Below are positions 7,181 to 31,400 of a DNA stretch of 37,337 nt, piece after piece. The translations under genes were made by a program, and so were the position numbers. How positions within the stretch are numbered: the first letter of the stretch is position 1; each line of letters opens with the position of its first letter. Under the pieces are notes generated by a model, which saw nothing but the letters and a program-made list of their open reading frames with translations, ran no database searches and was not told the origin of the DNA. This stretch comes from Spirochaetota bacterium (GTDB lineage: Bacteria > Spirochaetota > Spirochaetia > DTKZ01): assembly GCA_026418195.1 (NCBI GenBank), contig JAOABU010000083.1, positions 1-37,337 on the forward strand. The letters run 5' to 3'.

Positions 7181-8374
7181 ATGAAATTAGCTGCAAGGAT
7201 TGAAAAACTAGGTACGGAAACAGCTTTTGCAGTTTCGGCAGAAGCCCGTGCGTTTCAAAACGAAGGGCACACAGTGTATCCGTTCCATTTAGGGGATATC
7301 AACTTGCCTACTCCCCCCAATATCATTGAAGCTGCATACCGGGCGATGAGAGAGGGGAAAACGGGGTACGCTCCCAACGCAGGGATACCGGAACTTCGGG
7401 AAGCCTTGGCAGAAGACGTCAACAAGAGCCATAGAACCCACTACACCTATAAGAATGTAGCCATTCAGCCAGGAGGTAAGCCGGTGATCTCTAAGTTCAT
7501 CCAGGCCTTGATGGATCCCGGGACTGAGGTCCTGTACCCGAATCCCGGTTATCCCATCTATGAGTCGCAGATTGAGTTCCATGGTGGAGTGGCAGTTCCC
7601 TATGGGTTTCAACAAGGAGTATCGAACTTCCAGATAGATCTGGACGCAATGGAGAAAAAGATCACTCCACGTACAAAGCTTCTGATACTGAATGATCTTC
7701 ACAACCCAACGGGAGCAGAAGCTAATCTAACGGAATTAGAGAGGATTGCGACAATTGTTCGAGAGCATGATCTTTCCGTACTATGCGATGAAGCGTACTT
7801 TGATATCCGGTATGAAGGGACCTCCCGATCCCTGGTCAGTTTGCCCGGAATGGAAGAGCGGTGTGTCCTTTTGTATACTTTTTCGAAAAAGTATGCCATG
7901 ACAGGATGGCGGTTGGGAGCAGCCATTGGGCCAGAGAAAGTAATCGATACGATTTCCAAACTGAGTTTGAACGATGAATCCTGCACCAATCACTTTGTGC
8001 AAATCGCAGGAATCGAAGCATTACGAGGGGATCAAAGCGGCTCAAAGCAGATTCTTTCCATTTTAAAGGAGAGGAGGGATGTGGCTGTCTCCCTTTTAAA
8101 GCAGATTCCAGGGGTTTCCTGTTATACCCCACAGGCAACTTTTTACCTCTATCCCGATGTGACCGAACTCATGGAGAGGAAGGGATTTACAGAGTATGAA
8201 TCCTTTCGAAGGGATGTGCTGCACAAGACGGGAGTGAGTTTTTGTACCCGCCTTCATTTTGGACGGGCGTTACCCGGGGAGGAGCGAAAGTACCTTCGTC
8301 TTGCCTATTCAGGAATTGATGTAGGGAAGATCAGGGAGGCTTTGGAGCGGTTCAAACAGTATGCCCTTGATTAG
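7181..8374 (+). CDS. PLP-dependent class I/II aminotransferase
   Basis: The 397-residue product is a fold-type I aminotransferase of the aspartate-aminotransferase superfamily. Visible motifs are GYAPNAGIPELREAL at the cofactor-domain start, NPGYPIY, the substrate/cofactor loop NDLHNPTGA and CDEAYFDIRY (Asp contacting the pyridine nitrogen). TFSKKYAMTGWRLG holds the Schiff-base lysine, and RLAYSG carries the C-terminal carboxylate-binding arginine. It transfers an amino group from an amino acid to a 2-oxo acid in the cytoplasm; the substrate cannot be told from sequence. A near-ideal AAGGAGGTGA precedes the ATG. The gene stands alone between two minus-strand units and ends 29 bases from the convergent ftsK. 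Confidence 0.92.
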   Translation: MKLAARIEKLGTETAFAVSAEARAFQNEGHTVYPFHLGDINLPTPPNIIEAAYRAMREGKTGYAPNAGIPELREALAEDVNKSHRTHYTYKNVAIQPGGKPVISKFIQALMDPGTEVLYPNPGYPIYESQIEFHGGVAVPYGFQQGVSNFQIDLDAMEKKITPRTKLLILNDLHNPTGAEANLTELERIATIVREHDLSVLCDEAYFDIRYEGTSRSLVSLPGMEERCVLLYTFSKKYAMTGWRLGAAIGPEKVIDTISKLSLNDESCTNHFVQIAGIEALRGDQSGSKQILSILKERRDVAVSLLKQIPGVSCYTPQATFYLYPDVTELMERKGFTEYESFRRDVLHKTGVSFCTRLHFGRALPGEERKYLRLAYSGIDVGKIREALERFKQYALD

Positions 8375-8403
8375 TGGAAAGAAATATCTCCTTTCGCTGG
8401 TCT

Positions 8404-10542: not shown

Positions 10543-11333
10543 AGGAACAAGATTCCAATGATTCCCAGAGGGATTAGATATAGGGCAAACCACCCTAGTT
10601 GTCCGTTGCGGATCAGCTTCAGCAGGAAAGTCAATGCAAAGTACCCGGACAGGAAAGCTGCACCCATTCCGGCGATAAGTGCTGCTGGGGAAATATGGAG
10701 CTCCAATACCGATATATCTTTTATCGTTAGGATTAGGGCACCTAGTATGGCAGGTATGGAAAGAAGAAAGCTGTATTCCCCCGCAATAGAACGATTGAGT
10801 CTTCTAAGGAGGCCTGCTGAGATAGTGATGCCGGATCGGGAGATGCCTGGGAATACACCAATCCCTTGAGCGAGCCCTATGACGATTCCATCTGTAATGG
10901 AGAGTTCCTTATAGGTTTTGCCCCCCTTGCTCGTCCCAGCAACCAGTAGAAGAAAGGCTGTGAATATGAAAAATAGGGAGATGAGTTTTGGGTTGGCCTG
11001 TTCAGCCCAATGCTTTAGAGGAAGCCCAAGAAGACCTGTACAGAGGGTTGAAACGATCAAGGCTAGAATAAGCCGTTTCATTTCTTCCTGCTCGGCAAAG
11101 GATTCCCTACGCAGGATTCTGTACCCCCCCCAGATTAGTTGTAGGATCTTCTCTCGGAACACGATTCCCACCACCCCCAGCGTTGCCACATGGAGGAGCA
11201 CATCGAACAATAAGGGTACCTCTCGAACACCTAGTAGGTCCTGCAATAATGCCAGATGCCCAGAGCTCGATACAGGAAGGAATTCGGTTAGGCCCTGAAG
11301 AGCTCCCAAGAGGATGGCTTGTAAGTACGTCAT
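10539..11333 (-). CDS. uppP: Undecaprenyl-diphosphate phosphatase UppP/BacA
   Basis: The 264-residue polytopic membrane protein carries both family signatures: LQGLTEFLPVSSSGHL near the N-terminus and FPGISRSGITISAGLLRR in the middle. These hold the catalytic Glu/Ser/Arg cluster. It dephosphorylates undecaprenyl pyrophosphate, recycling the lipid carrier for peptidoglycan synthesis, and in other bacteria confers bacitracin tolerance. A GAGGG Shine-Dalgarno precedes the ATG. It starts 13 bases after the upstream DnaK-substrate-domain-like gene and overlaps ftsK by four bases, coupling lipid-carrier recycling with a division-associated motor. Confidence 0.96.
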   Translation of the reverse strand: MTYLQAILLGALQGLTEFLPVSSSGHLALLQDLLGVREVPLLFDVLLHVATLGVVGIVFREKILQLIWGGYRILRRESFAEQEEMKRLILALIVSTLCTGLLGLPLKHWAEQANPKLISLFFIFTAFLLLVAGTSKGGKTYKELSITDGIVIGLAQGIGVFPGISRSGITISAGLLRRLNRSIAGEYSFLLSIPAILGALILTIKDISVLELHISPAALIAGMGAAFLSGYFALTFLLKLIRNGQLGWFALYLIPLGIIGILFL

Positions 11334-11346
11334 GAGTTCCCTCGGT

Positions 11347-11961
11347 TCAAATAAGGAGTTGATACAAAGCAGTATCGAACGGATACCCTACTAGGGATGG
11401 GGGAGGATTCCCTCTGGTTGCAGAAAAAATGAAATACACAAGGATACCCAAGATAAGGAGACAAAGAAACACAAAGGCAATCAGCGCCGGGTACAGGAAC
11501 GGGCGTCTTGGGGCGGGTACGGCTTGCATCCCCTCTGTAGCTTCATTTCCTAGAAGGGCGCCTTGATCCAACGATGGGCTGAGTAGAGATCCTTCTATAG
11601 GGGGTTCAAACTCTGGAAGGGAAAAATCTCCATATTCCAGGCTTTCTATATCGATTCGTAGACTCTGGTATTCCCCTGAACCTTCATCCTGAATCCGAGC
11701 ATCTAAGGTGCTGGTATCGGTCAATCGAAGGATTAGCTCTAATTCTGGCATGCCATTCGAAGTAGGCTGAATGTGTTCTAGCACGAGGCTAGCGATGTAT
11801 TCCCACGAATTGGGATCGCTTTCCACATCTCCTCTATACAGGTCAACTTTTACCTGGGTTTGGTCTTTTTGGACTGTAGTAAGGATGACACGTTTCGCAA
11901 TCCGTTCCGTTTCCTCCAGAATCGGGAAGAATCGGCCATTTGCCAGTTTCAGGCCGATCAT
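11347..11961 (-). CDS. Membrane-anchored DnaK substrate-binding-domain-like protein
   Basis: The 204-residue product begins directly with a sheet-rich module (about residues 1-105). It resembles the beta-sandwich substrate-binding domain of Hsp70/DnaK: 'IGLKLANGRFFPILEE' parallels the DnaK 'LGIETMGG..LI' start, 'VDLYRGD' parallels 'VLQGER', 'MPELELILRLTDTSTLDARI' parallels 'PQIEVTFDIDANGIL', and 'GSGEYQSLRI' parallels 'GKEQ..I'. There is no ATPase domain. A proline-rich linker leads to a single transmembrane helix (about residues 155-180) and a short tail. This predicts a cytoplasmic peptide-binding module tethered to the inner membrane. ATG 11961 was chosen because GGAGG lies upstream and the predicted transcript starts near 11990. 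Similarity was judged by eye. Confidence 0.72.
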   Translation of the reverse strand: MIGLKLANGRFFPILEETERIAKRVILTTVQKDQTQVKVDLYRGDVESDPNSWEYIASLVLEHIQPTSNGMPELELILRLTDTSTLDARIQDEGSGEYQSLRIDIESLEYGDFSLPEFEPPIEGSLLSPSLDQGALLGNEATEGMQAVPAPRRPFLYPALIAFVFLCLLILGILVYFIFSATRGNPPPSLVGYPFDTALYQLLI

Positions 11962-11996
11962 ACCTTTCGCACCTCCCTCCATATGAATCGTATTCA

Positions 11997-12025
11997 AGCC
12001 TATAAGGGGAAAGCCCCTTTGTCAA
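11997..12025 (-). promoter_or_regulatory. Promoter of the SBD-like/uppP/ftsK operon with inverted repeat in the spacer
   Basis: On the minus strand a perfect TTGACA (12020-12025) is 17 bases from TAGGCT (11997-12002). The spacer is filled by the inverted repeat AAGGGG-cttt-CCCCTT (12004-12019), which could be an operator. Confidence 0.5.
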
Positions 12026-12040
12026 CCTTACTTTAGTTCA

Positions 12041-12069
12041 TTGACAGGGATACGTGCCTCTATCATAAT
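12041..12069 (+). promoter_or_regulatory. Sigma-70-type promoter of the TPR gene
   Basis: TTGACA (12041-12046), a 17-base spacer and CATAAT (12064-12069) form a near-consensus promoter. The ATG at 12076 lies six bases after the -10 hexamer, so the transcript would be essentially leaderless. It is back to back with the minus-strand promoter of the uppP operon. Confidence 0.6.
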
Positions 12070-12075
12070 GCATCC

Positions 12076-13425
12076 ATGCTGGACATGTTGCCTCTCCTGG
12101 CAGCCGCATTGGTGGTGATTGTTGGAATTGCAGTGTTTTCGGTTGTCACAGGAAAGAAGAAAAATCCCTCAGAAAAAAAGACCAAGAAATTAAAGGATCG
12201 AAACAGTATTTTGAAAGAGGCAAACAAACGTCTAGCCCAAAACCCGAAGGATTCGGAAGCCCTCCTCATGTTGGGTGAACTGTACTACAACGAAGAATCC
12301 TGGGACAAGGCAATGCACACCTACGGGTTGCTGATGGATCTATGCGGCGTCGATATGAGTTTGAACGAGTACGAAATCAGTTTAAAATACGCGATCTCTT
12401 CGTTGAAGACTGGAAAATACGAGGAAGCGTATAAAGGATTTTTAATTGCTAGAACAAAGGATATGGAATCCTTCGAAGTGAATTATCATTTGGGAATCCT
12501 GGAGTTCAAACGGAAGAGTTACGAGAAAGCAGTGCCCCTCCTGAAACACGCTGCCTCCAAACAGCCGGATCATTTAGAAACCTTGAAGTATCTTGGCTAT
12601 GCCCTATATAAGACGGGAAAGGCAAAGGAAGCTCTTCCCTACCTTCGAAGGGTTTTCGAGCACCAACCGGATGACAAAGAGACCATCTATGCTATGGGGC
12701 AATGCTACTATGAACTCGGAGCAAATGATCAAGCGATCCGGGTTTTTACTCACCTTCGGCCGGATCCTACCTATGGGCCTCAGGCAGCTCTGCTCTGTGG
12801 AATGACAAACCTACGGATTCGTCAAGTAGACCGGGCAATCATGGATTTTGAAATAGGCCTCAGACATAAGGAGATCCAACCGGAGGTTCTCCTAGAATTA
12901 AAGTATCGACTATCCTCTGCCTATGCGCAGAAGCAGGAACTAGGGAAGGCGTTGACCCTTCTCATGGAAATTTACAATGTCCAGCCATCTTACCGGGATG
13001 TGGAGGCCTTAATTTTGAAGTTTCGGGAGTTGAACAGCAACAAAAACCTTCAGACATACCTCATTGCTCCCCCCGCAGATTTCATCACCCTTTGTAGAAA
13101 GATCGTTGCCACCTTTATCCCTCAGGCGCAGGTGAAGATCCTCAATATTGCAGTCCAGAAAAACGAATACGCCGATATCCTAACCGAGGTGGAAACAGCT
13201 AAATGGCAAGACCTCATCATGTATCGCTTCATCCGCACCACCGGTGTAGTGGGAGAACTGATGTTGCGAGACTTCCATGCCCGCATTAAGGAAGCGAAGG
13301 CGGGAAGGGGTTACTGTTTTACAGCAGGAGAGTTCAGCGAGGAAGCCCAAAAATTCGTAGAAGCTCGACTGATCGATCTGGTGGATAAAAGCGGTTTGAA
13401 CAAGATCCTGATGACTACCAACTGA
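12076..13425 (+). CDS. Membrane-anchored TPR protein with C-terminal Mrr-like domain
   Basis: The 449-residue product starts with a transmembrane helix (about residues 3-25) and a lysine-rich stop-transfer stretch. Six or more tetratricopeptide repeats follow (about 45-310), for example 'DSEALLMLGELYYNEESWDKA' and 'ETLKYLGYALYKTGKAKEALPYL'. The last ~110 residues resemble the Mrr/restriction-endonuclease-like fold: the pattern GYCFTAGEFSEEAQKFVEA followed by LIDLVDKSGLNKIL matches the C-terminal half of that family. The lysine normally found in its QxK motif is not seen (QDLIMYRF), so nuclease activity is doubtful. The protein is probably a cytoplasm-facing scaffold. No Shine-Dalgarno precedes ATG 12076 or the in-frame ATG 12085. 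Its end overlaps rsmG by 11 bases on the opposite strand. Confidence 0.85.
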   Translation: MLDMLPLLAAALVVIVGIAVFSVVTGKKKNPSEKKTKKLKDRNSILKEANKRLAQNPKDSEALLMLGELYYNEESWDKAMHTYGLLMDLCGVDMSLNEYEISLKYAISSLKTGKYEEAYKGFLIARTKDMESFEVNYHLGILEFKRKSYEKAVPLLKHAASKQPDHLETLKYLGYALYKTGKAKEALPYLRRVFEHQPDDKETIYAMGQCYYELGANDQAIRVFTHLRPDPTYGPQAALLCGMTNLRIRQVDRAIMDFEIGLRHKEIQPEVLLELKYRLSSAYAQKQELGKALTLLMEIYNVQPSYRDVEALILKFRELNSNKNLQTYLIAPPADFITLCRKIVATFIPQAQVKILNIAVQKNEYADILTEVETAKWQDLIMYRFIRTTGVVGELMLRDFHARIKEAKAGRGYCFTAGEFSEEAQKFVEARLIDLVDKSGLNKILMTTN

Positions 13426-20923: not shown

Positions 20924-22864
20924 GTGTCGCCGATACTGATTTTTTTTACGAATATTATTGTACCCTGCCTGTCTAGCCTTTTCCTAGTGGTATACATTTT
21001 CTATTTCTCAGTATCATCGTATGTCAAATCGTCCAGTTTACGGTTGTTTCAACTCTTTCTTGTATTTTTTACTATCTTTCTAATAGGAAGACCTCTTCAA
21101 CTGCTGACAGGCCCATACCCATGGCCCCTGGTTATTGTGAATATTCGAGTCTTTTTACTCTGTGCTGTGGTAGCTCCTTTGATCATCCTTGCGTCCCAAG
21201 TTCTGGACAATGAAACACAGAGAACGAATAGATGGGTGATACTCTTCTGTATTCTGTTAGGAGTTCTCTACGTAGTGTTCAACACCTTAGGAACGAAGGA
21301 TAGCTATACTCTCTTCGAACTGTATGGATTGACAGCCTACGACAATCTAACTCCCTCACGAATCCCACCATTTTATGGAAGGGAAGTTACCCTGATCGCG
21401 CAAACTTCGATCGGAGTCGTCCTACTCGTGTTTTCTTTAGTGCGATTGCGCAAGTTGACGAAACAGAGATCAGAACATTATTTCTTTTTCAAGAAAAACT
21501 TATTTATCAATTCAGGTATACTAGTATTCGCTCTTTCTTTTATTGTTGGATCTGTCCTAAAACAATGGTGGATCTACTATGTGACATCCATTGTGATCTC
21601 GATGCTATTTGGGGGTAGCGTACTCTACGATATAAAAGAATTGAATATTTTTCATGAGAAGACCCTTCCTTTGCTAAAGCATGAAATTGTGAATCGTTTA
21701 TTTTCCAACGATGGTGGGGAAAAAGAAATCGTAGAACTCATGACTTGTATTGGGAAAAATACCGAACTAAATTGCGCTGCTGTGATTCAAATAAACCCTA
21801 TACCAAGTGATCGTGTAGTATCTATGTTTGATGGGAAGTTCGAAGAAATGGTAATAAAACAGTTGTCGAAATACTATCCCGAAGAGTGCCTTCTCACTCT
21901 CCCCATATTTGGGAATACGTTAGGCGTTTTATTTAAAGTAGACAAGCTTCATGAGGAATACAAGAATATAGAACTATTTGAACGGGTCGGTGAGCGTATA
22001 AAAGAGATGGGTAAAGAATCGATCGTGATAGGCATTGGGAGCATAAAGAGTGGAATCGGGTTCCTAGGGGAGTCTTTCTATGAAGCCATGTTAGCAAAAA
22101 AGTACGCTTTGAACAATCAAATCGAAGGGGTTGTGTATTATCGAAACATAAAACAGAGCGAGAATGATCAACGCCCTTATCCTTATCGGGAAAAACAACT
22201 TTTGGTAGAAAAGCTGAGAGTTGGGGATGTCCATCAAATCGAACGGTTGATAGAAGAGGTTATTAGCAAGCTGAAACTTTGGGCTATGGAAAACGTTTCT
22301 TCAATGAAGCTTAAAGCGTATGAAATGATCGGATCTTTGGTAACCATCATAGACGCTAAGAGTGGAGAGCGGGACAAATTGAACGAATTAATAGAAAAAA
22401 GCTTTAAAAACATCAGCAATGCAAAGGAAATAGGAGAAATCGAGAGAGTGTTACGGGAGGTGACCTATTCTGTAGTAACTGCCATAAGGAATCAATACCA
22501 AAAACGAACAAACCTATACATTTCGAAAGCAAGGGAGTTTATAGAAAAGAAATATAAATACCCGATCACTTTCAAAAAGGTAGCAGAGTACATCGGAGTA
22601 AGTCCATCGTATTTCTTGCATCTGTTCAAGAAAGAGATGGGCATCACCTTCAGTGAATATGTAACGAATATAAGGATTCAGATGGCTAAAAAATTTTTAC
22701 TTGAAGGCAAGCTAACTATTACTGAAATAGCCTATGAAGTGGGTTTTAGGAATCCAAATTATTTCAGTTACGTATTCAAGAAGACTGTAGGAATCTCTGC
22801 AAAGGAGTTCAAGCGAAGCATTGGGAAAGGGGAGGATCCCTACCCACATCCTTTTTCTACTTGA
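20924..22864 (+). CDS. Membrane-bound AraC-family regulator with GGDEF-like middle domain
   Basis: The 646-residue product begins with about seven hydrophobic helices (residues 5-235). A degenerate GGDEF-like region of the kind found in YesN/CdaR regulators follows (VIGIGSIKSGIGFLGES then YEAMLAKKYAL), then helical linkers. A C-terminal AraC DNA-binding domain (about 535-640) has two helix-turn-helix units: FKKVAEYIGVSPSYFLHLFK and ITEIAYEVGFRNPNYFSYVF. A GTG start with a weak GAGAG site is used. The gene directly follows the TRAP operon, so it probably controls it in response to a membrane or periplasmic signal. The gene reads as visibly more AT-rich (ATA, AAA codons) than its neighbours, which may point to transfer. 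Confidence 0.88.
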   Translation: MSPILIFFTNIIVPCLSSLFLVVYIFYFSVSSYVKSSSLRLFQLFLVFFTIFLIGRPLQLLTGPYPWPLVIVNIRVFLLCAVVAPLIILASQVLDNETQRTNRWVILFCILLGVLYVVFNTLGTKDSYTLFELYGLTAYDNLTPSRIPPFYGREVTLIAQTSIGVVLLVFSLVRLRKLTKQRSEHYFFFKKNLFINSGILVFALSFIVGSVLKQWWIYYVTSIVISMLFGGSVLYDIKELNIFHEKTLPLLKHEIVNRLFSNDGGEKEIVELMTCIGKNTELNCAAVIQINPIPSDRVVSMFDGKFEEMVIKQLSKYYPEECLLTLPIFGNTLGVLFKVDKLHEEYKNIELFERVGERIKEMGKESIVIGIGSIKSGIGFLGESFYEAMLAKKYALNNQIEGVVYYRNIKQSENDQRPYPYREKQLLVEKLRVGDVHQIERLIEEVISKLKLWAMENVSSMKLKAYEMIGSLVTIIDAKSGERDKLNELIEKSFKNISNAKEIGEIERVLREVTYSVVTAIRNQYQKRTNLYISKAREFIEKKYKYPITFKKVAEYIGVSPSYFLHLFKKEMGITFSEYVTNIRIQMAKKFLLEGKLTITEIAYEVGFRNPNYFSYVFKKTVGISAKEFKRSIGKGEDPYPHPFST

Positions 22865-22946: not shown

Positions 22947-24704
22947 TTACCTCGTATAGAGCGGCCTTGGAGTATACTTGGTATGCAAGAGTTCGTGGGA
23001 TTTGTGGCTCAGGGGTTTCCCCAAGAACTCGGCATAGAGCTGTTTGATGGCAGGGTTCTGATGGGAACAGCGGATCTTGCGGGTAGAATCATCTTTATAG
23101 ATTCCCGCAAGGCGTTTTTTCCGAATTTCATCTGTAGCTCCATAGGGTTGTCCACCACCCCCAATGCATCCACCTCGACAAGCCATCACTTCGATGAAGT
23201 GCCAGGGCAATTCTTTCCCCTTAACCTTGGCCTCACGAACCATGTCCAGGACCTGTTCGATGTTCCCCATCTGGTGAGCTACGGCTACCCGGACCTCTTT
23301 GCCCGCCATTCGGATCCGAGCTTCCTTAATTCCTTCGATTCCTCGTACGTCCTCTAAATCTACATTTTTCAGTTCTTGGCCTGTGACAAGGAAGTAAGCG
23401 GTTCTGAGGGCTGCCTCCATGACACCACCGGTGGCTCCAAAGATCGTACCTGCGCCTGTGTAAATCCCCAGCGGAGCATCCGCGTCTTCATCCGGCAAAT
23501 TGAGAAAGTCGATTCCTGCGGATTTGATCATACGTGAAAGTTCCCTTGTAGTGATCGATACATCGATATCCTGACAACCGGAGGAATACATGGATTCACT
23601 TCGAACGATTTCGTACTTCTTCGCGGTGCAAGGCATGATGGATACCATGAAGATGTTTCGGCAATCGATCCCGCTTTTATCCGCATAGTAGGTCTTGCTC
23701 AGAGCTCCGACCATGGCTTGGGGTGATTTTGCGGTGGAAAAGAGGGGGATGAGATCGTGGTAGTACTTTTCTAGGTAATCTACCCATGCAGGACAGCAGG
23801 AGGTAATCAAGGGTAAATCCCCTTTCCCATGGACAAAGCGTTCCACGAACTCAGAGCCTTCTTCCATGATGGTGAGATCTGCTCCAAAGTTTGTATCAAA
23901 TACCCCTTTAAATCCCAACCTCCTGAGAGCAGCGTATGCTTTGTTTGTTACCAGAGTGCCTGGTTCTAAGCCAAACGCCTCTCCTAGAGCGACACGGACT
24001 GCAGGAGCGATCTGGACCACACAATGCTTGGTAGGATCCTGGAGAGCCTTCCATACCTTCTGAGTTTCATCCTTCTCGTAGATAGCTCCTACCGGACAAT
24101 GGGCGGAACACTGCCCACATTTGATGCAGGGGCTTTCTGCTAGTAGTACATCCCCTGCAGGTGCAATTCGGGTAGAGTCTCCTCTTCCGAGGAATTCGAT
24201 GGCCCAGACGTTCTGCATTCCCTGACAAACCTTCACGCATCGACCACACTTTACGCATTTTTCAGGGTTGAGGATGAGGGATGTAGTGGAATCGTCAACA
24301 GCAATCTGGTTGATATTGTACTCGAAGGGCATCTCCCGTATCCCGAACTCGGCAGCTAACCTCTGTAGCTCGCAGTTCTGGTTTCGAAGACATTGGAGAC
24401 AGTCGTTCGGATGGGTAGAGAGGATTAGTTCAATCACGGTTCTCCGTACTTCCACGATCTCTGGATCGTGGGTGATAATACTCATCCCATCTTCCACAGG
24501 GGTGGAGCAAGCCCGGAACATCTTTGGAGAGCCTTCCACCTTTACAACGCAGATTCCACAGGCAGCCCATGCGGGAAGATCGGGATGGTAGCAAAGGGTA
24601 GGAATCTTCACGTTTACTAGTTTCGCAGCCTCTAGCACTGTTGTGCCTTCATGGACAAAGAACGGCATCCCGTTCACTTTTATACTAACTGTTTTCGCGT
24701 TCAC
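22947..24704 (-). CDS. hydA: [FeFe]-hydrogenase catalytic subunit HydA
   Basis: The 585-residue protein has the modular order of trimeric group A hydrogenases. A plant-type [2Fe-2S] domain (CYHPDLPAWAACGICVV) comes first, then a His/Cys-ligated cluster (HPNDCLQCLRNQNC) and two 4Fe-4S motifs (CVKCGRCVKVC, CIKCGQCSAHCPVG). All three H-cluster signatures follow: L1 TSCCPAW, L2 MPCTAKKYE and L3 EVMACRGGCIGGGGQP. It makes or oxidises H2 in the cytoplasm. With HydB and HydC it probably couples NADH and reduced ferredoxin (electron bifurcation, by family knowledge). The start is GTG with GGAGG nine bases upstream, 20 bases after hydB. The maturases HydE/F/G are not in the window. Confidence 0.97.
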   Translation of the reverse strand: MNAKTVSIKVNGMPFFVHEGTTVLEAAKLVNVKIPTLCYHPDLPAWAACGICVVKVEGSPKMFRACSTPVEDGMSIITHDPEIVEVRRTVIELILSTHPNDCLQCLRNQNCELQRLAAEFGIREMPFEYNINQIAVDDSTTSLILNPEKCVKCGRCVKVCQGMQNVWAIEFLGRGDSTRIAPAGDVLLAESPCIKCGQCSAHCPVGAIYEKDETQKVWKALQDPTKHCVVQIAPAVRVALGEAFGLEPGTLVTNKAYAALRRLGFKGVFDTNFGADLTIMEEGSEFVERFVHGKGDLPLITSCCPAWVDYLEKYYHDLIPLFSTAKSPQAMVGALSKTYYADKSGIDCRNIFMVSIMPCTAKKYEIVRSESMYSSGCQDIDVSITTRELSRMIKSAGIDFLNLPDEDADAPLGIYTGAGTIFGATGGVMEAALRTAYFLVTGQELKNVDLEDVRGIEGIKEARIRMAGKEVRVAVAHQMGNIEQVLDMVREAKVKGKELPWHFIEVMACRGGCIGGGGQPYGATDEIRKKRLAGIYKDDSTRKIRCSHQNPAIKQLYAEFLGKPLSHKSHELLHTKYTPRPLYTR

Positions 24705-24724: not shown

Positions 24725-26512
24725 TTATTTGCGCACTACCGCGCCAAACTTACATACCGAGTAACACTCTCCACACTTGATACAGGCAGATCGATCGATC
24801 ACATGGGGTTGACGCTTTTCACCCGTGATGCAATTTACCGGGCACCTACGAGCGCAAAGTCCACACCCAATACATTTTTCTGGCAGGATCGAGTAGGTGA
24901 TGAGATCCTTACACTTTCCCGCCGGACAGGTTCGGTCATCGATGTGAGCTAGATACTCCTTCTCGAAGTAGGTGAGGGTAGAAAGCACTGGGTTCGGTGC
25001 GGTTTGCCCGAGACCACAGAGAGATGCTCGTTTCATGGCATTTCCTATCTGCCTCATTTTCGTAATATCGTCCCGGGTCGCTTTGCCTTTTGAAATCTTG
25101 TCTAAGTAATTCAGAAGCTGTCTCCCCCCTACCCGACAGGGAGCGCACTTTCCACAGGATTCATCCACCGTGAACCCCAGGTAGAACTTTGCGATATCTA
25201 CCATACAATCGTCTTCGTCCATTACGATCATCCCACCAGAGCCCATGATAGAACCGAGTTTCTGCAAGTTTTCGTAGTCAATGGGGGTATCGAGATACTC
25301 TGCGGTGATCACCCCACCAGAGGGCCCACCAGTCTGAACAGCTTTGAACTTCTTACCGTTAATGATCCCTCCCCCAATGTCGTAGATAATTTCTCTCAGA
25401 GTGGTACCCATCGGAACTTCCACTAGGCCGGAATTCCGTATCTTCCCTGTAAGAGCAAAGACTTTGGTGCCTTTGGATTTTTCTGTACCGATGTTGGCAA
25501 ACCAGGCTCCACCCCGAAGGATGATCACGGGTATATTGGCCCAGGTTTCCACATTGTTGATAACCGTAGGTTTTTGCCAGAGCCCCTTTACCGCTGGGAA
25601 AGGGGGGCGTGGTTTCGGCATTCCACGCTCACCTTCGATGGAAGCCAACAGGGCTGTTTCTTCCCCGCATACGAAGGCTCCTGCACCAAGGCGTAACTCA
25701 ATATCAAAGTCGAATCCACTCCCTAGGATATCTTTTCCAAGTAACCCGAGTTCTTTTGCTTGTTTAATGGCAATGTCGAGACGATGAATGGCCAAGGGGT
25801 ATTCCGCACGGATATAGATGTATCCCTTGTTCGAACCTATTGTCTTCCCTGCAATTATCATGGCTTCCAAGATGCTATGGGGGTCACCCTCAATCGTGGA
25901 ACGATCCATGTATGCTCCGGGGTCTCCCTCGTCCGCGTTGCAGACAATGTACTTGGGGGAATCGTTTACCTGTTTGGTGAAGTTCCACTTGAGCCAAGTA
26001 GGGAACCCTGCGCCTCCTCGACCTCGTAAACCCGATATTTTTAGTTCATTGATTACTTGGTCTGGAGTCATTTCGAAAAGAACCTTTTCCAGTGCTGCGT
26101 ATCCATCCCGAGCAATGTATTCATTGATATCTTCTGGGTTAATGACTCCGCAGTTCCGTAGAACGATACGAAACTGTTTCTGGTAGAAGGCAATATCCTC
26201 TACTTTGGCGTGTTTCTTTGTTTCTTCCCCTTGATAGAGGAGCCGCTTGACTTGTCTTCCCTTTACCAGGTGTTCTGCTACGATTTCCTTTGCATCGGTA
26301 GGGTTCACTTCTACATAGAAGGATTCATCGGGCAGTACTTTTACGATGGGTCCTTTTTCACAGAATCCAAAACATCCCGTTTTTACTACTTGAACATCCT
26401 CTTTGATGCCCGCGGCCTCTAGTTCGGTGATGAAATTCTTGTATATTTCGTCCGATTTCGAGGATTGGCATGCAGTTCCACCGCAGACTAGGACATAACT
26501 CTTAAATGCCAT
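24725..26512 (-). CDS. hydB: NADH/FMN subunit HydB of the [FeFe]-hydrogenase (NuoF-like)
   Basis: The 595-residue subunit starts with a thioredoxin-like [2Fe-2S] domain (Cys10, Cys15, Cys47, Cys51). The NuoF core has the FMN/NAD glycine-rich loops GLRGRGGAGFPTWLKW and ICNADEGDPGAYMDR-type sequence (written VCNADEGDPGAYMDR here). An SLBB region and the N3-type cluster motif CGKCAPCRVGG come next, then two C-terminal 4Fe-4S motifs (CIGCGLCARRCPVNC, CIKCGECYSVC). It is the NAD(H)- and FMN-binding electron hub. It starts 34 bases after the small [2Fe-2S]-fold gene. Its length and domain order match HydB of Thermotoga-type enzymes rather than complex I NuoF. Confidence 0.96.
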   Translation of the reverse strand: MAFKSYVLVCGGTACQSSKSDEIYKNFITELEAAGIKEDVQVVKTGCFGFCEKGPIVKVLPDESFYVEVNPTDAKEIVAEHLVKGRQVKRLLYQGEETKKHAKVEDIAFYQKQFRIVLRNCGVINPEDINEYIARDGYAALEKVLFEMTPDQVINELKISGLRGRGGAGFPTWLKWNFTKQVNDSPKYIVCNADEGDPGAYMDRSTIEGDPHSILEAMIIAGKTIGSNKGYIYIRAEYPLAIHRLDIAIKQAKELGLLGKDILGSGFDFDIELRLGAGAFVCGEETALLASIEGERGMPKPRPPFPAVKGLWQKPTVINNVETWANIPVIILRGGAWFANIGTEKSKGTKVFALTGKIRNSGLVEVPMGTTLREIIYDIGGGIINGKKFKAVQTGGPSGGVITAEYLDTPIDYENLQKLGSIMGSGGMIVMDEDDCMVDIAKFYLGFTVDESCGKCAPCRVGGRQLLNYLDKISKGKATRDDITKMRQIGNAMKRASLCGLGQTAPNPVLSTLTYFEKEYLAHIDDRTCPAGKCKDLITYSILPEKCIGCGLCARRCPVNCITGEKRQPHVIDRSACIKCGECYSVCKFGAVVRK

Positions 26513-26546: not shown

Positions 26547-26939
26547 CTATTTTTTCATGATATCTGCAGCGGGTTTATCCAAAATGTGATCGTTGATCAG
26601 CACTTTTCCAAGAATATGCTTTCGAACGATCTTTACCGCCGTTTCTGGATCTACCTTGCCGTAGATAATATCGGGCATACCGGGCATGCGGATTTCTACG
26701 GTAGGTTCCGCATAGCAATATCCCATACACCCCGTTTGTCGAACCAGTACGTTGCTAAGATTTTGTGCTTCTAGCTCGTTGAGGAAGGCGCTTAAGGTTT
26801 GTTTTGCTCCTGCAGCGATTCCACAAGTCGCCATCCCTACGATGATTTCAATGTCTTTACCGGTTATTTCCCTCTTTTCTAGTTCCCGCTTTTTCGATTC
26901 GCGGAGCTTCTTTAGCTCTTCCAGGGTCATCTTTGCCAT
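26547..26939 (-). CDS. Small [2Fe-2S] thioredoxin-fold protein of the hydrogenase locus
   Basis: The 130-residue protein has a charged N-terminal helix (LEELKKLRESKKRELEKRE) and a thioredoxin-like ferredoxin fold with Cys39, Cys71 and Cys75 (TCGIAAGAK, TGCMGYCYAEP). The usual second cysteine of the first C-x4-C pair is replaced by Gly44, so a standard four-cysteine [2Fe-2S] site is incomplete. Small proteins of this type accompany hydABC loci in thermophilic anaerobes; the role is not established. It lies between the GHKL ATPase gene (12 bases) and hydB. Confidence 0.85.
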   Translation of the reverse strand: MAKMTLEELKKLRESKKRELEKREITGKDIEIIVGMATCGIAAGAKQTLSAFLNELEAQNLSNVLVRQTGCMGYCYAEPTVEIRMPGMPDIIYGKVDPETAVKIVRKHILGKVLINDHILDKPAADIMKK

Positions 26940-26951
26940 AGCCTTCTCCTT

Positions 26952-27509
26952 CTATTGAGGAACTCCCTCTGTTATGAGGGCGCTTTCCTGCGATTCTAAG
27001 TATTCTTTCAAGAGAGCCTGAGAACCTACGGATTCTAGGTCTCCCAATGCTTCCCACAATTCAGACCTGAGCAAGGTATAGGAATCCTTGTCCCGACTGC
27101 GCCGAATACGGATTTCATGGGTGCCCGGATAGGTGAGTATCTGCCGGAAGGTTTCCGCTAGATTTCCGATAGGTGGAGCATCGATGTGTGTCAAGGGAAC
27201 TCGAAAATAAACGGAAGTGCCCTTCCCGGGTTCGGAATGAATATGGAACTCTCCCTTTAAGGATTCAATGCATTGCACAAGAAAGGGTAACCCCAGTCCG
27301 ACCTTTCGGTTGGGATGTTTGGATTCAGAGGTTCCATAGGGATCGAGGGCTTTGGTAACCTCTTCGGGACTCATTCCTTTGCCGGTATCGGCGACTCGTA
27401 CCGTAAGGAAACCGTCCTGCTCTTGTATCTCCACAGTTGTATAGACAGAACCGGCTTCTAGAGCATTTTCCACGATATCTTGTATGTAATCGCTGATGGT
27501 GTAATGCAC
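26952..27509 (-). CDS. Kinase-less GHKL ATPase of the hydrogenase locus
   Basis: The 185-residue protein is an HATPase_c domain (about residues 1-105) with N-box YIQDIVENALEAGS, G1 VADTGKGMS and G2 VGLGLPFLVQC. It has no histidine phospho-acceptor helix and no sensor. A C-terminal ~80 residues have no recognised domain. It may act as an anti-sigma-like protein kinase or an ATP-dependent switch. The GTG start shares one base with the hydC stop (TAGTG), so the two are translationally coupled. Its constant place beside hydC in other anaerobes suggests a hydrogenase-related job. Confidence 0.85.
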   Translation of the reverse strand: MHYTISDYIQDIVENALEAGSVYTTVEIQEQDGFLTVRVADTGKGMSPEEVTKALDPYGTSESKHPNRKVGLGLPFLVQCIESLKGEFHIHSEPGKGTSVYFRVPLTHIDAPPIGNLAETFRQILTYPGTHEIRIRRSRDKDSYTLLRSELWEALGDLESVGSQALLKEYLESQESALITEGVPQ

Positions 27510-27991
27510 TAGGACTCCCTGTGTTTGGCAAGTATATCAGCCAGTTGGTCTTTCTTTACTTTTCCGTATACTTCATGATTGACCATCAGTACGGGTGCAA
27601 GGCCACAACAACCAACACACCGTACCGCTTCGATGGAGAAAATCCCATCGTCTGTAGTCGAGTTTACGCCTGTACCTAGGAGAGTTTCCAGTTCATGGAG
27701 TAGATCCTCGCCTCCCTTCAAGTAGCAAGCAGTGCCGAGACAAACGGAGATTTTGTTCTTTCCAGGTTTACGGAGTTTGAAAAAGTGGTAAAAGGTGATT
27801 ACCCCATAGATCTTTGCCAGGGGTACATCCAATTCTTTGCTAAGCTGAATGGCTACGGGTCGAGGTACATACCCATACTCTTCTTGGACTTTATGGAGAA
27901 TCATAATGAGGTTCCCAGGTCGGTCCTTCCATTCCGCAATGAACTGTTGGAGTCCTGCGGTGAGTTTTACAGGTTCTGTTGCAGTCGTCAT
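27509..27991 (-). CDS. hydC: Hydrogenase subunit HydC (NuoE-like [2Fe-2S])
   Basis: The 160-residue protein matches NuoE/HydC. A helical N-terminal half (ILHKVQEEYGYVPRPVAIQL) is followed by a thioredoxin fold with [2Fe-2S] ligands in CLGTACYLKGG and CVGCCGLAPV. It is the third subunit of the NAD-linked hydrogenase. ATG 27991 is chosen because GGAGGAGG lies upstream at good spacing; the longer frame to 28042 covers the leader. It is the first gene of the minus-strand operon, downstream of a clear promoter. Confidence 0.95.
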   Translation of the reverse strand: MTTATEPVKLTAGLQQFIAEWKDRPGNLIMILHKVQEEYGYVPRPVAIQLSKELDVPLAKIYGVITFYHFFKLRKPGKNKISVCLGTACYLKGGEDLLHELETLLGTGVNSTTDDGIFSIEAVRCVGCCGLAPVLMVNHEVYGKVKKDQLADILAKHRES

Positions 27992-28029
27992 GAAAATTCC
28001 TCCTCCCATATTGGGAATAGTATGGCGCG

Positions 28030-28058
28030 ATTTTATAAACAATCGATAAAAAAATCAA
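28030..28058 (-). promoter_or_regulatory. Promoter of the hydrogenase operon with overlapping dyad (possible Rex site)
   Basis: On the minus strand TTGATT (28053-28058) is 17 bases from TAAAAT (28030-28035). The predicted leader to ATG 27991 is about 32 bases. An 18-base imperfect palindrome (14 of 18 positions symmetrical, beginning CGATTG and ending AAATCG) covers the -10. It contains TTGTTTA, reminiscent of a Rex half-site, but it does not match the full Rex consensus. Confidence 0.55.
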
Positions 28059-28074
28059 CAGTGGGAACTACATA

Positions 28075-28103
28075 TTGCAAAAGATCTCAGTTAGGATTAT
28101 TAT
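28075..28103 (+). promoter_or_regulatory. Promoter of the rex-led signalling operon
   Basis: TTGCAA (28075-28080), 17 bases and TATTAT (28098-28103) precede rex. The leader contains TTGTGAA (28114-28120), a perfect Rex half-site, but the second half is absent. Autoregulation is possible but not demonstrated. Confidence 0.45.
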
Positions 28104-28135
28104 ATTCTGGATATTGTGAATTAAGGTGCATAAGT

Positions 28136-28789
28136 ATGATAAAGAATTTAAATAAAAGCACAATATTGAGGTTGGCTCGGTATCTTAGAGTTCTGCAAAA
28201 ATTGAAATCTCTCGGATTCGTCAAGGTGTTCTCTAACAACCTAGGGGATGCCATTGGTGTTACCCCCGCGGTGGTTCGGAAGGATTTTTCCATCATCAAC
28301 ATACCAGGAAACAAACGGGGGGGGTACAACATCGATACTCTTATTGAACTATTGAGCAATGTCCTGGGAAAAAATCAGCCTCATGAAATCATCATTGTGG
28401 GTTGTGGGCGGATCGGTTCTGCGTTGATGGAGTACAAGGAGTTTGCCAAAGAGGGGATCCATATTGCGGCAGGGTTTGATGTAGATCCAAGCAAGGTGGA
28501 ACCGAAAGCAGGTATTCCTATCCTGGACGTAAAAGAGATGCCTGCGTTTATCAAAGAATACAAGATAACCGTAGGGGTCATCGCTGTGCCCGACACTGCC
28601 GCTGCTCAAGTGATGGAACAGATGGTTAATGCAGGGATACAGGGAATTCTCAATTTTGCACCCGTAGAATTAAAGTGCAATCATAAAGGGTGCCTCATTC
28701 ACAATGTGAACCTGAGCTTGGAGATCGAGAACCTTTTCTACCTGGTCAAATTGGCAGATCGCCTAGCAGAACCTTTCGAACTGGTATAA
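28136..28789 (+). CDS. rex: Redox-sensing transcriptional repressor Rex
   Basis: The 217-residue protein has the Rex winged-helix N-terminus (TILRLARYLRVLQKL, NNLGDAIGVTPAVVRKDFS) and a Rossmann NAD(H) domain (IIIVGCGRIGSALMEY). A C-terminal swap helix follows. Rex senses the NADH/NAD+ ratio and represses fermentation and hydrogenase genes when NAD+ is high. The start is ATG 28136 with AAGGTG upstream. The long frame upstream is antisense to hydC and not coding. It is divergent from the hydrogenase operon, so that operon is its likely target, and it heads a five-gene operon of signalling proteins. Confidence 0.95.
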   Translation: MIKNLNKSTILRLARYLRVLQKLKSLGFVKVFSNNLGDAIGVTPAVVRKDFSIINIPGNKRGGYNIDTLIELLSNVLGKNQPHEIIIVGCGRIGSALMEYKEFAKEGIHIAAGFDVDPSKVEPKAGIPILDVKEMPAFIKEYKITVGVIAVPDTAAAQVMEQMVNAGIQGILNFAPVELKCNHKGCLIHNVNLSLEIENLFYLVKLADRLAEPFELV

Positions 28790-28823
28790 CTTGTCTGTGA
28801 GAATCAAACAGAAAGGAATGAGT

Positions 28824-29165
28824 ATGAAACTAGAAACAATCCTACAAAGGATCCCCTGCACAGTAGTAGTAAAAGGAAAGGGATTCGAGGAGTTAGATCT
28901 TCGCTCTATAGTGGCCTCTGACTTAATGAGTGATGTACTTACTACTGTAGATGATCGTTTCCTCATTGTAACCTCGTTAAACTCTGAACAGGTGATCCGA
29001 ACAGCCGATATCGTTGGGGCACCTGTTGTGCTCCTCGTGAATGGGAAGCAACCTCAGAATGGGATGGTTCGGTTGGCAGAGGAGTTCGGCATCACCCTTC
29101 TGTCTACCCCCTTGTCTATGTACAAAGTTTGTTATCTTCTAGGCTGTCTACTGGAATCGAAATGA
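28824..29165 (+). CDS. DRTGG-domain protein (first copy)
   Basis: The 113-residue protein looks like a stand-alone DRTGG domain, a small ligand-binding fold also found next to phosphotransacetylases and CBS proteins: DDRFLIVTSLNSEQVIRTAD, then GAPVVLLVNGKQP, then a GITLLSTPLSMY ending. ATG 28824 has AAGGA six bases upstream. Its stop overlaps the next start as ATGA. The molecular function is unknown; it is probably a ligand-sensing accessory of the hydrogenase locus. Confidence 0.78.
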   Translation: MKLETILQRIPCTVVVKGKGFEELDLRSIVASDLMSDVLTTVDDRFLIVTSLNSEQVIRTADIVGAPVVLLVNGKQPQNGMVRLAEEFGITLLSTPLSMYKVCYLLGCLLESK

Positions 29166-30079
29166 GTACTATTCCCATCAATACACAGGAATCTCCGCCC
29201 TTTCTACTGGATTTAATCTATCGCCTCAAAGTAAAGGATGTCATGACCCATGAGGTGATCACTGCCCGAAGGGAAACCCCCCTACGACAAATCCAGTATA
29301 TCATGAAAGAGAAAGGAATAACTGGAGTTCCCATTACGGACGATGAGGGAAAACGGCTCTTTGGAATCGTTTCGATGGACGATATCATTAGAGCGTTGGA
29401 TGGGGGGTATATCCAAGATCCTGCTGAACGATGGATGAGTCGGAACCTAATTGTACTGGAAGATGACATGCCCCTTCAGTTTGCCATTTCGTACTTGGAT
29501 AAGTTCCGATATGGGAGGTTCCCGGTTCTGAATAAGGATCGTGAACTAGTAGGTATAATCACTAGCAGGGATATCATCATCGCTTTACTGGTGGAAGTGA
29601 ATAAGGAGGTTGAAAAATTAGAGCAGCGGATCGTTCAGCCTCCTTCCAGACCCGGAGAGGAAGCCCGACTCTTATACCATGTACGGAAGTACGATTTCGA
29701 GAATGCAGGGAAGGCTTCTGCAGGGATCAAAAAACTGTTATTGGAACGGAATCTGGATCCTAAGACCCTTCGGCGTATTTCCGTGGCTGCCTATGAACTA
29801 GAAATGAATCTCGTCGTTCATTCCGAGGGAGGCACCCTCTCCTTTCGAATGGAAAAAGATCGGGTGGAAATCGAAGCGAAGGATAGAGGACCGGGGATTC
29901 CGGATGTAGAGCAGGCAATGGAGGAAGGGTTCTCCACTGCCAATGAATGGATTCGTTCCCTAGGGTTCGGAGCCGGGATGGGATTGCCCAATGCAAAGCG
30001 GGTATCGGATGAGTTCACAATAGATTCTAGGGTGGGAGAGGGGACAACGGTACGGGCAGTTATCTACCTGCCCAAGTAG
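29162..30079 (+). CDS. CBS-pair protein with C-terminal GHKL ATPase (anti-sigma-like)
   Basis: The 305-residue protein has two CBS domains (about residues 20-150: VKDVMTHEVITARRETPLRQI, GIVSMDDIIRAL, VGIITSRDIIIALL). An RsbW-like HATPase follows (about 190-303) with N-box AAYELEMNLVVHS, G1 KDRGPGIPD and G2 GFGAGMGLPNAKRVSDEF. CBS pairs usually bind adenine nucleotides, so the ATPase may be tuned by energy charge. No sigma factor or anti-anti-sigma partner lies nearby. It starts inside the preceding stop codon (ATGA). Confidence 0.88.
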   Translation: MSTIPINTQESPPFLLDLIYRLKVKDVMTHEVITARRETPLRQIQYIMKEKGITGVPITDDEGKRLFGIVSMDDIIRALDGGYIQDPAERWMSRNLIVLEDDMPLQFAISYLDKFRYGRFPVLNKDRELVGIITSRDIIIALLVEVNKEVEKLEQRIVQPPSRPGEEARLLYHVRKYDFENAGKASAGIKKLLLERNLDPKTLRRISVAAYELEMNLVVHSEGGTLSFRMEKDRVEIEAKDRGPGIPDVEQAMEEGFSTANEWIRSLGFGAGMGLPNAKRVSDEFTIDSRVGEGTTVRAVIYLPK

Positions 30080-30105
30080 TCTATCATTAAAAAGAAAAAG
30101 GGGAT

Positions 30106-30130
30106 CTACAGTACGATAGCTATACTGTAG
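30106..30130. other. 25-base dyad-symmetric element between signalling genes
   Basis: CTACAGTA (30106-30113) pairs exactly with TACTGTAG (30123-30130) around nine bases. It ends 24 bases before the second DRTGG gene. It may be an operator for an internal promoter or an mRNA hairpin; there is no T run. Confidence 0.55.
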
Positions 30131-30154
30131 GGGAAGGTGAATGAGGAGGTCTAC

Positions 30155-30493
30155 ATGAGGGTAAGGGATCTTTCTGAAGCCTTAGGGATAGAATTGATAC
30201 AGCCAGAGTTCGAGGATACAGAGATTTTAGATGGATATACGGGAGACCTTCTTTCGGATGTAATGGCTCACGCATCTTCTGGTTCCGTTCTTATTACCAT
30301 TCAAGCCCACAAGAATACCATTGCCGTAGCAGGGCTTGTGGGAATCCTCGCCATTATTGTAGCCAACGAAAGGCCTATACCGGAAGATATGGTAGAGGCC
30401 GCTCGGAAGGAAAAGATCGCAATTTTTCGCTCAAAGGAGTCTCAGTTTGTCCTTTCGGGTAAATTATACGCTCAATTGAGTTCCTCTCGATAA
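30155..30493 (+). CDS. DRTGG-domain protein (second copy)
   Basis: The 112-residue protein is a second stand-alone DRTGG-like domain. It has GYTGDLLSDVMAHASSGSVL, ITIQAHKNTIAVAGLVGI and a SKESQFVLSGKLYAQL end. The 'GDLLSDVMA' motif parallels 'ASDLMSDVLT' in the first copy, so the two probably form a related pair. ATG 30155 is chosen because GAGGAGG lies five bases upstream; the frame extends six codons to a GTG at 30137. It sits six bases before the PHP gene. Confidence 0.8.
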   Translation: MRVRDLSEALGIELIQPEFEDTEILDGYTGDLLSDVMAHASSGSVLITIQAHKNTIAVAGLVGILAIIVANERPIPEDMVEAARKEKIAIFRSKESQFVLSGKLYAQLSSSR

Positions 30494-30499
30494 AAGATC

Positions 30500-31225
30500 A
30501 TGCGATGCATTGCTGACCTCCACATCCATTCCTGCTTGAGCCCGTGTGGAGATTTATCTATGTCTCCTAGTCGTATTGCAAAAGAGGCCGCTAGAATTGG
30601 ACTTTCCCTTATTGCATTAACGGACCACAATAGTGCATTGAATTGTCCTGCCTTCGCAGAGGCTTGTCGGAAAGAAGGGATCGTGGCCCTGTTTGGGATA
30701 GAGGTCACCACAATTGAAGAGATTCATGTTCTCGCCTTATTCCCTACGGTGGAACAAGCACTGGAGTTGGGTACCCAGATCGCTCGATCCTTGCCAAAGG
30801 TGCCGTATGATCCTGAACGTCACGGGGATCAAGTGTATGTAAACGAAAGCGAAGAAATTCTTGGAGAAGTTGATACGTATCTGGGAGTAGGCACCCATTT
30901 CTCTTTAGATGGACTTTTATCTGTCGTCCAATCGATGGGTGGACTTTTCATTCCTTCCCATATCGATCGACCTGTCAACAGCTTGTTGAGTCAGTTAGGA
31001 CGGATCCCTGAATTACCGTATTCTGCCCTTGAGGTGACTCGCTGGCCTCCACCTGTAGACATGAAAAGCCAAGTATTTGTTACAAACTCAGATGCCCATA
31101 TTCCCGAACTCATTGGAACTCGATATACAATCTTTGAGGGAGATAGCCCATCCTTTGAGTCCTTGCGTAACGCGTTGCAAGAGGGTATGGTAATACCATC
31201 CTTGTCAGCTATTGACGCGGGATAA
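30500..31225 (+). CDS. PHP-domain metal-dependent phosphoesterase
   Basis: The 241-residue protein carries the four PHP metal motifs in order: DLHIHSCLSPCGD, ALTDHNS, GIEVTT with SHIDRP, and TNSDAH near the end. These hold two or three divalent metals for phosphate-ester hydrolysis. The substrate is unknown. PHP proteins occur beside hydABC genes in Thermotoga-like organisms, so its position as last gene of the rex operon fits. It starts six bases after the DRTGG stop. Confidence 0.88.
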   Translation: MRCIADLHIHSCLSPCGDLSMSPSRIAKEAARIGLSLIALTDHNSALNCPAFAEACRKEGIVALFGIEVTTIEEIHVLALFPTVEQALELGTQIARSLPKVPYDPERHGDQVYVNESEEILGEVDTYLGVGTHFSLDGLLSVVQSMGGLFIPSHIDRPVNSLLSQLGRIPELPYSALEVTRWPPPVDMKSQVFVTNSDAHIPELIGTRYTIFEGDSPSFESLRNALQEGMVIPSLSAIDAG

Positions 31226-31292: not shown

Positions 31293-31388
31293 GTGCCTTG
31301 CGGAAGAAAACGAAAGCGGAAAAAAATCGCTACACACAAAAGAAAGAAAAAGCTTCGGAAGAACCGTCACAAAAAGAAGAACAAATAG
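31293..31388 (+). CDS. Tiny basic AURKAIP1/COX24-type protein (31 aa)
   Basis: A 31-codon ORF begins with GTG at 31293 (TAGGAG nine bases upstream) and ends 12 bases before dxs. It reads MPCGRKRKRKKIATHKRKKK and continues with arginine, lysine and histidine. The 'KIATHKRKKKLRKNRHKKK' pattern is characteristic of the AURKAIP1/COX24 (mS38-like) domain, small ribosome-associated basic peptides known in several bacterial groups including spirochaetes. A role in the small ribosomal subunit is inferred from the family. Despite its size the match is specific. Confidence 0.85.
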   Translation: MPCGRKRKRKKIATHKRKKKLRKNRHKKKNK

Positions 31389-31400
31389 CGCGGAGATCCT

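Follow-up and report, generated by a model that had tools for sequence, protein, structure and literature searches.

A CBS domain pair stands in for a sensory hydrogenase in a conserved gene module beside HydABC and other NADH/ferredoxin-coupled enzymes

In a 37,337-nucleotide stretch of DNA from a Spirochaetota bacterium (contig JAOABU010000083.1 of assembly GCA_026418195.1; hereafter the window), gene calls and Pfam/NCBIfam searches place seven non-catalytic genes (26547-31225) around the hydABC genes of an [FeFe] hydrogenase, in two divergent operons. The minus-strand operon has the order hydC-GHKL1-hndB-hydB-hydA, and the plus-strand operon the order rex-DRTGG1-CBS/GHKL-DRTGG2-PHP. The second GHKL protein (CBS-GHKL, 29162..30079, plus strand) is a fusion of a CBS pair (7e-29) with a SpoIIAB-like GHKL domain (HATPase_c 2e-10). 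The CBS pair occupies the place that a group D-type sensory [FeFe] hydrogenase (HydS) takes beside the kinase domain in related loci, which is a new finding. An initial annotation had described the seven genes, their divergent arrangement and their positions correctly, and every member that it listed is present; one detail to be corrected is the CBS pair, which does not have a gene of its own and forms the N-terminal part (one half) of that second GHKL protein.

The exchange is apparent from the compared loci, in which ORFs (open reading frames) were predicted mechanically and identified by profiles made for this analysis. HydS, defined here as the relatives of hydrogenase-like ORFs first seen adjoining CBS-less kinases in spirochaetes, lies next to the kinase at 0 of 85 CBS-fused loci and at 93 of 101 CBS-less loci when all loci are counted; after dereplication, the numbers are 0 of 63 and 71 of 78. 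In a tree of the kinase domain, which was built from few columns and has many open forks, the CBS label is clustered and changes about seven times, and at least three of these changes are forced by well-supported branches. The mutual exclusion of CBS and HydS can therefore not be explained as one split by descent. Some spirochaetes have both kinds of kinase, in separate loci. The spirochaete HydS ORFs match [FeFe] hydrogenases in NCBIfam below every family cut-off, and they were assigned to group D from their length and genomic context, following published descriptions of M2e enzymes (PMC8163306, PMC3561251), and not from a tree. The window contains no HydS, and the closest HydS-like match in the genome is 28% identical and lies on another contig. 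Two further hydrogenase-like ORFs of this genome (580 and 505 aa; G000:C22:28498-32742) are distantly HydS-like and are perhaps a group C sensory hydrogenase pair.

In the sensory-type clusters of group D (M2e), such as those of TamHydS and of Cthe_0335 near Cthe_0340-0342, HydS is flanked by a histidine kinase-like ATPase and is located upstream of a bifurcating hydrogenase (PMC8163306, PMC3561251). Relatives of these clusters have the same DRTGG-GHKL-HydS-DRTGG-PHP core, and the window shares with them the DRTGG-GHKL...DRTGG-PHP core together with the bifurcating enzyme. In contrast to the group D clusters, the slot in the window is without HydS, and the GHKL protein bears the CBS pair instead.

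The conservation of the module is far above chance. Among 296 Spirochaetota genomes, full-length CBS-GHKL was found in 56, GHKL1 in 57 and both in 50 (Fisher p 5e-42, ignoring relatedness), and GHKL1 was found in 21 of the 21 families that have CBS-GHKL. The gene order is kept in more than 180 loci, and many of the compared loci come from metagenome bins. With the kinase domain of CBS-GHKL as query, a scan across GTDB reached at least 575 related loci in many phyla, and the best 80, selected for similarity to the window, were read. The order is kept in Clostridia, Kiritimatiellota, Atribacterota, Acidobacteriota, Planctomycetota, Chloroflexota and others; in Clostridia it reads DRTGG-GHKL-HydS-DRTGG-PHP-hydC-GHKL1-hndB-hydB-hydA, or variants of this with a divergent hyd operon. 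GHKL1 was also sought independently in 196 genomes of Clostridia, the class to which locus L123 belongs, and was present in 106. When 60 of these loci were read, 45 had the CBS-less kinase, 44 of the 45 had HydS, and none had the CBS form. The expectation that similar sets accompany hydABC elsewhere was thus borne out by the co-occurrence check: members of at least eight phyla carry the set together with hydABC or hydBC-type operons. HydA scores over the A6 cut-off in 113 Spirochaetota genomes and GHKL1 is present in 57, which indicates that HydABC is accompanied by the module optionally and does not require it.

The module is not confined to [FeFe] hydrogenases. It was found beside [NiFe] hydrogenase genes with HydABC-type partners ([NiFe]-HydABCSL), once with HydS (L151) and once with the CBS form (L165), and beside molybdopterin formate dehydrogenase-type subunits with HydB/C-type partners at two loci (L148, L152), both of which have the CBS form and the first of which is without GHKL1. 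It also lies directly upstream of rnfCDGEAB at L121, L123 (9606-17506), L145 and L206, all without either input, and at L227, where a DRTGG/GHKL/PHP/GHKL1 set with HydS stands next to rnf with no HydABC beside it. At L196 (2270-12144) and L219, the module is joined by hydC, GHKL1, hndB and hydB, with no hydA, and rnf genes follow; this arrangement amounts to a HydBC-type NADH unit without a hydrogenase subunit. A sensor-kinase-like gene upstream of rnf has been noted in Clostridium aceticum (PMC7911925). The occurrence at [NiFe]-HydABCSL, NAD-linked formate dehydrogenase and Rnf indicates that the module tracks NADH/ferredoxin enzymes and not hydrogenase as such, NADH/ferredoxin coupling being the property common to the accompanied enzymes. 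The description of the set as hydrogenase-linked was therefore right about its tie to hydABC and too narrow for the remainder. Both the input swap and the list of accompanied enzymes are genomic facts.

GHKL1 (26952..27509, minus strand; HATPase_c 1e-17) is HydE of Acetobacterium woodii. The hydCEDBA operon of that organism (HydE, Awo_c27000) has a gene order identical to that of the window, hydC-GHKL1-hndB-hydB-hydA; its published description covers HydE alone and does not discuss partners of the CBS-GHKL, DRTGG or PHP type. HydE was reported to lie outside the active, purified enzyme, with a possible role in "assembly or signalling" (PMC3315566), and its transcript level is similar to those of the hydrogenase subunits (PMC10472528). 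GHKL1 consists of a histidine-kinase-type ATP-binding domain without a DHp domain, followed by a conserved C-terminal extension of about 75 aa. Across 43 sequences, the N-box Asp/Asn and the glycines of G1 and G2 are invariant, and most members have Asp at the N-box position in place of the usual Glu. The AlphaFold2 model has a predicted local distance difference test score (pLDDT) of 92.6. GHKL1 matches the histidine kinase KinB (3d36, 6e-18), and its fold also matches MutL. Profile and fold match BCKDK as well, less closely than KinB and MutL. In most loci GHKL1 sits among the structural genes.

The CBS-GHKL protein is likewise well preserved. Its N-box E-x-E-x-N and its G2 motif GFGAGMGL are invariant or nearly so in 85 sequences, and SpoIIAB (1til, E 3e-10) is the solved structure to which the kinase domain is closest. 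The Glu four residues before the N-box Asn (N-4), which is the catalytic base in SpoIIAB, is invariant in all 85 CBS-bearing proteins and in a set of 15 diverse sequences. The initial annotation's view of the GHKL proteins as kinase-like thus agrees with their intact ATP-site motifs and with this SpoIIAB-like Glu. Both CBS repeats carry the G-h-h-S/T-x-x-D ligand motif (GIVSMDD and GIITSRD), in which the Gly is conserved in 85 of 85 sequences and the Asp in 80-81 of 85. The protein shares the GHKL fold and the catalytic Glu at N-4 with the anti-sigma serine kinases SpoIIAB and RsbW, but differs from them in its extra CBS pair and its GFGAGMGL motif, and its locus is without a STAS antagonist, PP2C or sigma factor. 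The genome has only three STAS domains, at C75 and C113, and none lies in the window. A separate cluster of RsbW-like GHKL proteins and STAS domains (L232, G000:C113:6500-14500) is likely the conventional partner-switching system of this genome. No DHp domain was found in either GHKL protein, for which Pfam gives only ATP-binding (and CBS) domains. In this the two proteins differ from two-component histidine kinases, and no response regulator is among the recurrent neighbours.

The remaining members of the plus-strand operon are two DRTGG proteins and a putative phosphoesterase. DRTGG1 (28824..29165), a single DRTGG-fold protein, scores slightly below the Pfam gathering score for PF07085 (23.3 vs 25.2 bits), and its model (pLDDT 96) matches the solved DRTGG domains 3l2b, 3l31 and 2ioj. 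Two of these (3l2b, 3l31) belong to the CBS-DRTGG-CBS regulatory region of family II pyrophosphatase, so both domain types are common to that enzyme and the module; in the module, however, DRTGG and CBS belong to different proteins, and a pyrophosphatase domain is absent. The CBS-DRTGG pyrophosphatase is controlled by adenine nucleotides. The suggestion that the CBS and DRTGG domains point to nucleotide sensing is consistent with this fold match and with the nucleotide-type motif kept in both CBS repeats. DRTGG2 (30137..30493, with the start probably at ATG 30155) scores as an HPr-kinase N-terminus (PF02603, 24.7 bits vs a gathering score of 24), and its residues D, S, T and N are invariant in 116 sequences. 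The PHP-family metallo-phosphoesterase (30500..31225; PF02811 1.5e-11) retains all nine canonical metal ligands (H,H,D,H,E,H,H,D,H), which are kept without exception in the 108-110 sequences compared. It thus has the full ligand set of PHP phosphoesterases such as RNase AM/RNM, CehA and the PHP domain of PolC, while its similarity to solved PHP members is weak (best 1e-4).

Taken together, we consider it rather probable that these genes form a dedicated regulatory module for the NADH/ferredoxin-coupled enzyme, with a fixed core and an exchangeable input. The core would comprise DRTGG1, the SpoIIAB-like GHKL protein, DRTGG2, PHP and the HydE-type GHKL1. The input would be adenylates, sensed by the CBS pair, in this spirochaete, and H2, sensed by HydS, in Clostridia, and it would switch the GHKL kinase. 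The kinase may phosphorylate or bind a protein partner, most likely DRTGG1 since this is its translationally coupled neighbour (the DRTGG1 stop overlaps the CBS-GHKL start as ATGA), and PHP would reverse the mark. DRTGG2 and GHKL1 would relay the state to the enzyme encoded alongside, with GHKL1 as the arm at the enzyme, so that enzyme activity or synthesis would be matched to energy charge; Rex would separately tie transcription to NADH/NAD+. Phosphorylation or partner switching by the GHKL ATPases, as first proposed from the domains, is plausible. A narrower version can be put forward only tentatively: a widespread, modular, post-translational GHKL-kinase switch on NADH/ferredoxin enzymes ([FeFe]- and [NiFe]-HydABC, bifurcating formate dehydrogenase and Rnf), in which the sensor swaps between HydS (H2) and CBS (adenylate), DRTGG stands in for STAS, and PHP for PP2C.

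Several points weigh against this reading. Neither CBS nor HydS is present at the four loci L121, L123, L145 and L206 beside rnf, nor at L079 and L087; the same is true of L071 and L105, although these two loci are broken or cut. Many spirochaetes carry the DRTGG1/CBS-GHKL/DRTGG2/PHP set apart from hydABC, with its members staying together. A STAS antagonist, sigma factor, PP2C phosphatase or response regulator is not among the recurrent neighbours in the spirochaete loci, where distant genes are not excluded. The invariant Ser in the D-L-x-S motif of DRTGG1, considered as the phosphosite, was reduced to a possibility, since it aligns with a Ser of AF_1212, a DRTGG protein outside the module, and may be structural. 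The kinase, ATPase, ligand-binding and phosphatase roles, and with them every biochemical step, are inferred. Genomic linkage cannot tell control of activity from control of expression.

The alternative that survives best, with perhaps a one-in-three standing in our judgement at most, is that the module acts on transcription, its GHKL kinases and DRTGG proteins governing a regulator (Rex, AraC-type or sigma-type) that determines how strongly the hyd operon is expressed. rex is the first gene of the module operon in several phyla, and published views of HydS-linked clusters favour expression control, with an AraC regulator beside TamHydS (PMC8163306). However, no DNA-binding gene is constant, rex adjoins the module in a minority of loci, and no convincing Rex operator was found in the window: between hydC and rex, the best candidates match at 9-10 of 14 positions, the same as background. 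Rex control at the hydC/rex promoter is thus unsupported by an operator match.

It is less likely that GHKL1 acts on the enzyme directly as its kinase, like the mitochondrial pyruvate or branched-chain dehydrogenase kinase, and is in turn controlled by the other module proteins. Its profile and fold match BCKDK as well as histidine kinases, and it lies inside the structural operon with a transcript level like that of the subunits in A. woodii (PMC10472528), but KinB and MutL are nearer to it, most members have the N-box Asp, and HydABC is without a known phosphosite. We regard as less likely again a role of the GHKL and PHP proteins in assembly or maturation of the multi-cluster enzyme, in the manner of chaperone-like ATPases. 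The place of GHKL1 among the structural genes, the MutL match and the absence of A. woodii HydE from the purified enzyme, for which "assembly" was proposed (PMC3315566), would fit this. On the other hand, GHKL1 also stands at Rnf, [NiFe] and formate dehydrogenase operons and is thus not specific for the H-cluster, HydA scores above its cut-off in 113 Spirochaetota genomes against 57 with GHKL1, and the exchange of CBS for HydS fits sensing rather than assembly. Furthermore, the source genome has a second hydCBA cluster on contig C6 (L231, G000:C6:5000-24000, 7483-13082) without any module gene, GHKL1 being single-copy in this genome, which argues against an essential role of the module in assembly. 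Maturation of the H-cluster is disfavoured on the same evidence, as is the assembly role among those raised in the initial annotation. That the neighbours were merely carried along by horizontal transfer of hydABC clusters, which are known to be mobile (PMC11406978), and share no function is very improbable, since the members stay grouped far from hydABC and beside Rnf and their catalytic residues are conserved.

The hydrogenase itself is of the bifurcating type by signature. HydA (22947..24704, minus strand) is the catalytic subunit of a group A6 NADH-dependent [FeFe] hydrogenase (NF040763, 822 bits, cut-off 765). HydB (24725..26512, minus strand; nuoF_fam 1e-145), a NuoF-like diaphorase with extra Fe-S domains, has the A-x-M signature (DPGAYMDR) that is found in 108 of 109 HydB of the compared set; A-x-M near the NADH site is a proposed criterion for electron-bifurcating HydB (PMC7311640). 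The HydB of the second cluster is extended (1070 aa ORF) and also has the signature (DPGAYMNR). The NuoE-like hydC (27509..28042, minus strand; PF01257 3e-46), whose stop overlaps the ghkl1 start by one base, probably has its real start at the ATG at 27991, downstream of a GGAGGAGG site. The small thioredoxin-fold protein of HndB/HydD type (26547..26939, minus strand) was recognised by a weak PF01257 match and the conserved order hydC-ghkl1-hndB-hydB-hydA. Its presumed 2Fe-2S-binding Cys are not 90% conserved among spirochaete relatives, in agreement with A. woodii HydD, which is without a cofactor site. The rex gene (28136..28789, plus strand; NF003996, 242 bits, cut-off 138) encodes an NADH/NAD+ redox-sensing repressor. 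Two flanking ORFs were also seen: a large membrane protein (20924-22864), convergent with hydA, whose C-terminal domain is of the AraC DNA-binding type, and a very short, highly basic ORF located between PHP and dxs (31294-31389; MPCGRKRKRKK...), which resembles a small ribosomal protein of the THX/AURKAIP1 type.

Kinases near sensory and bifurcating hydrogenases have been noted in Clostridium thermocellum and Thermoanaerobacter (PMC3561251, PMC3492117, PMC3608648), and signal transfer from the M2e/group D sensory hydrogenases has been posed as an open question (PMC8163306). In open-licence papers, no publication was found on the DRTGG/GHKL/PHP module as a unit, on its CBS form, or on its presence at Rnf or formate dehydrogenase; subscription papers, among them reviews of clostridial hydrogenases, may hold more. 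The linkage of kinase, HydS and HydABC was thus already known, as was HydE, and the swap, the wider range of enzymes and the module-less second HydABC are new. The initial annotation had recognised a coherent signalling-type set tied to hydABC, for which, as it stated, no function is known; the replacement of HydS by CBS and the identity of GHKL1 with HydE had escaped it.

HydE has lacked an explanation since 2012. From the shared core and the swap of CBS and HydS, the likely signalling partners of the group D hydrogenases can now be named: the adjacent GHKL kinase, the two DRTGG proteins, PHP and HydE. How bifurcating hydrogenases and Rnf are controlled matters for H2 production by fermentation, for acetogenesis and for syntrophy.

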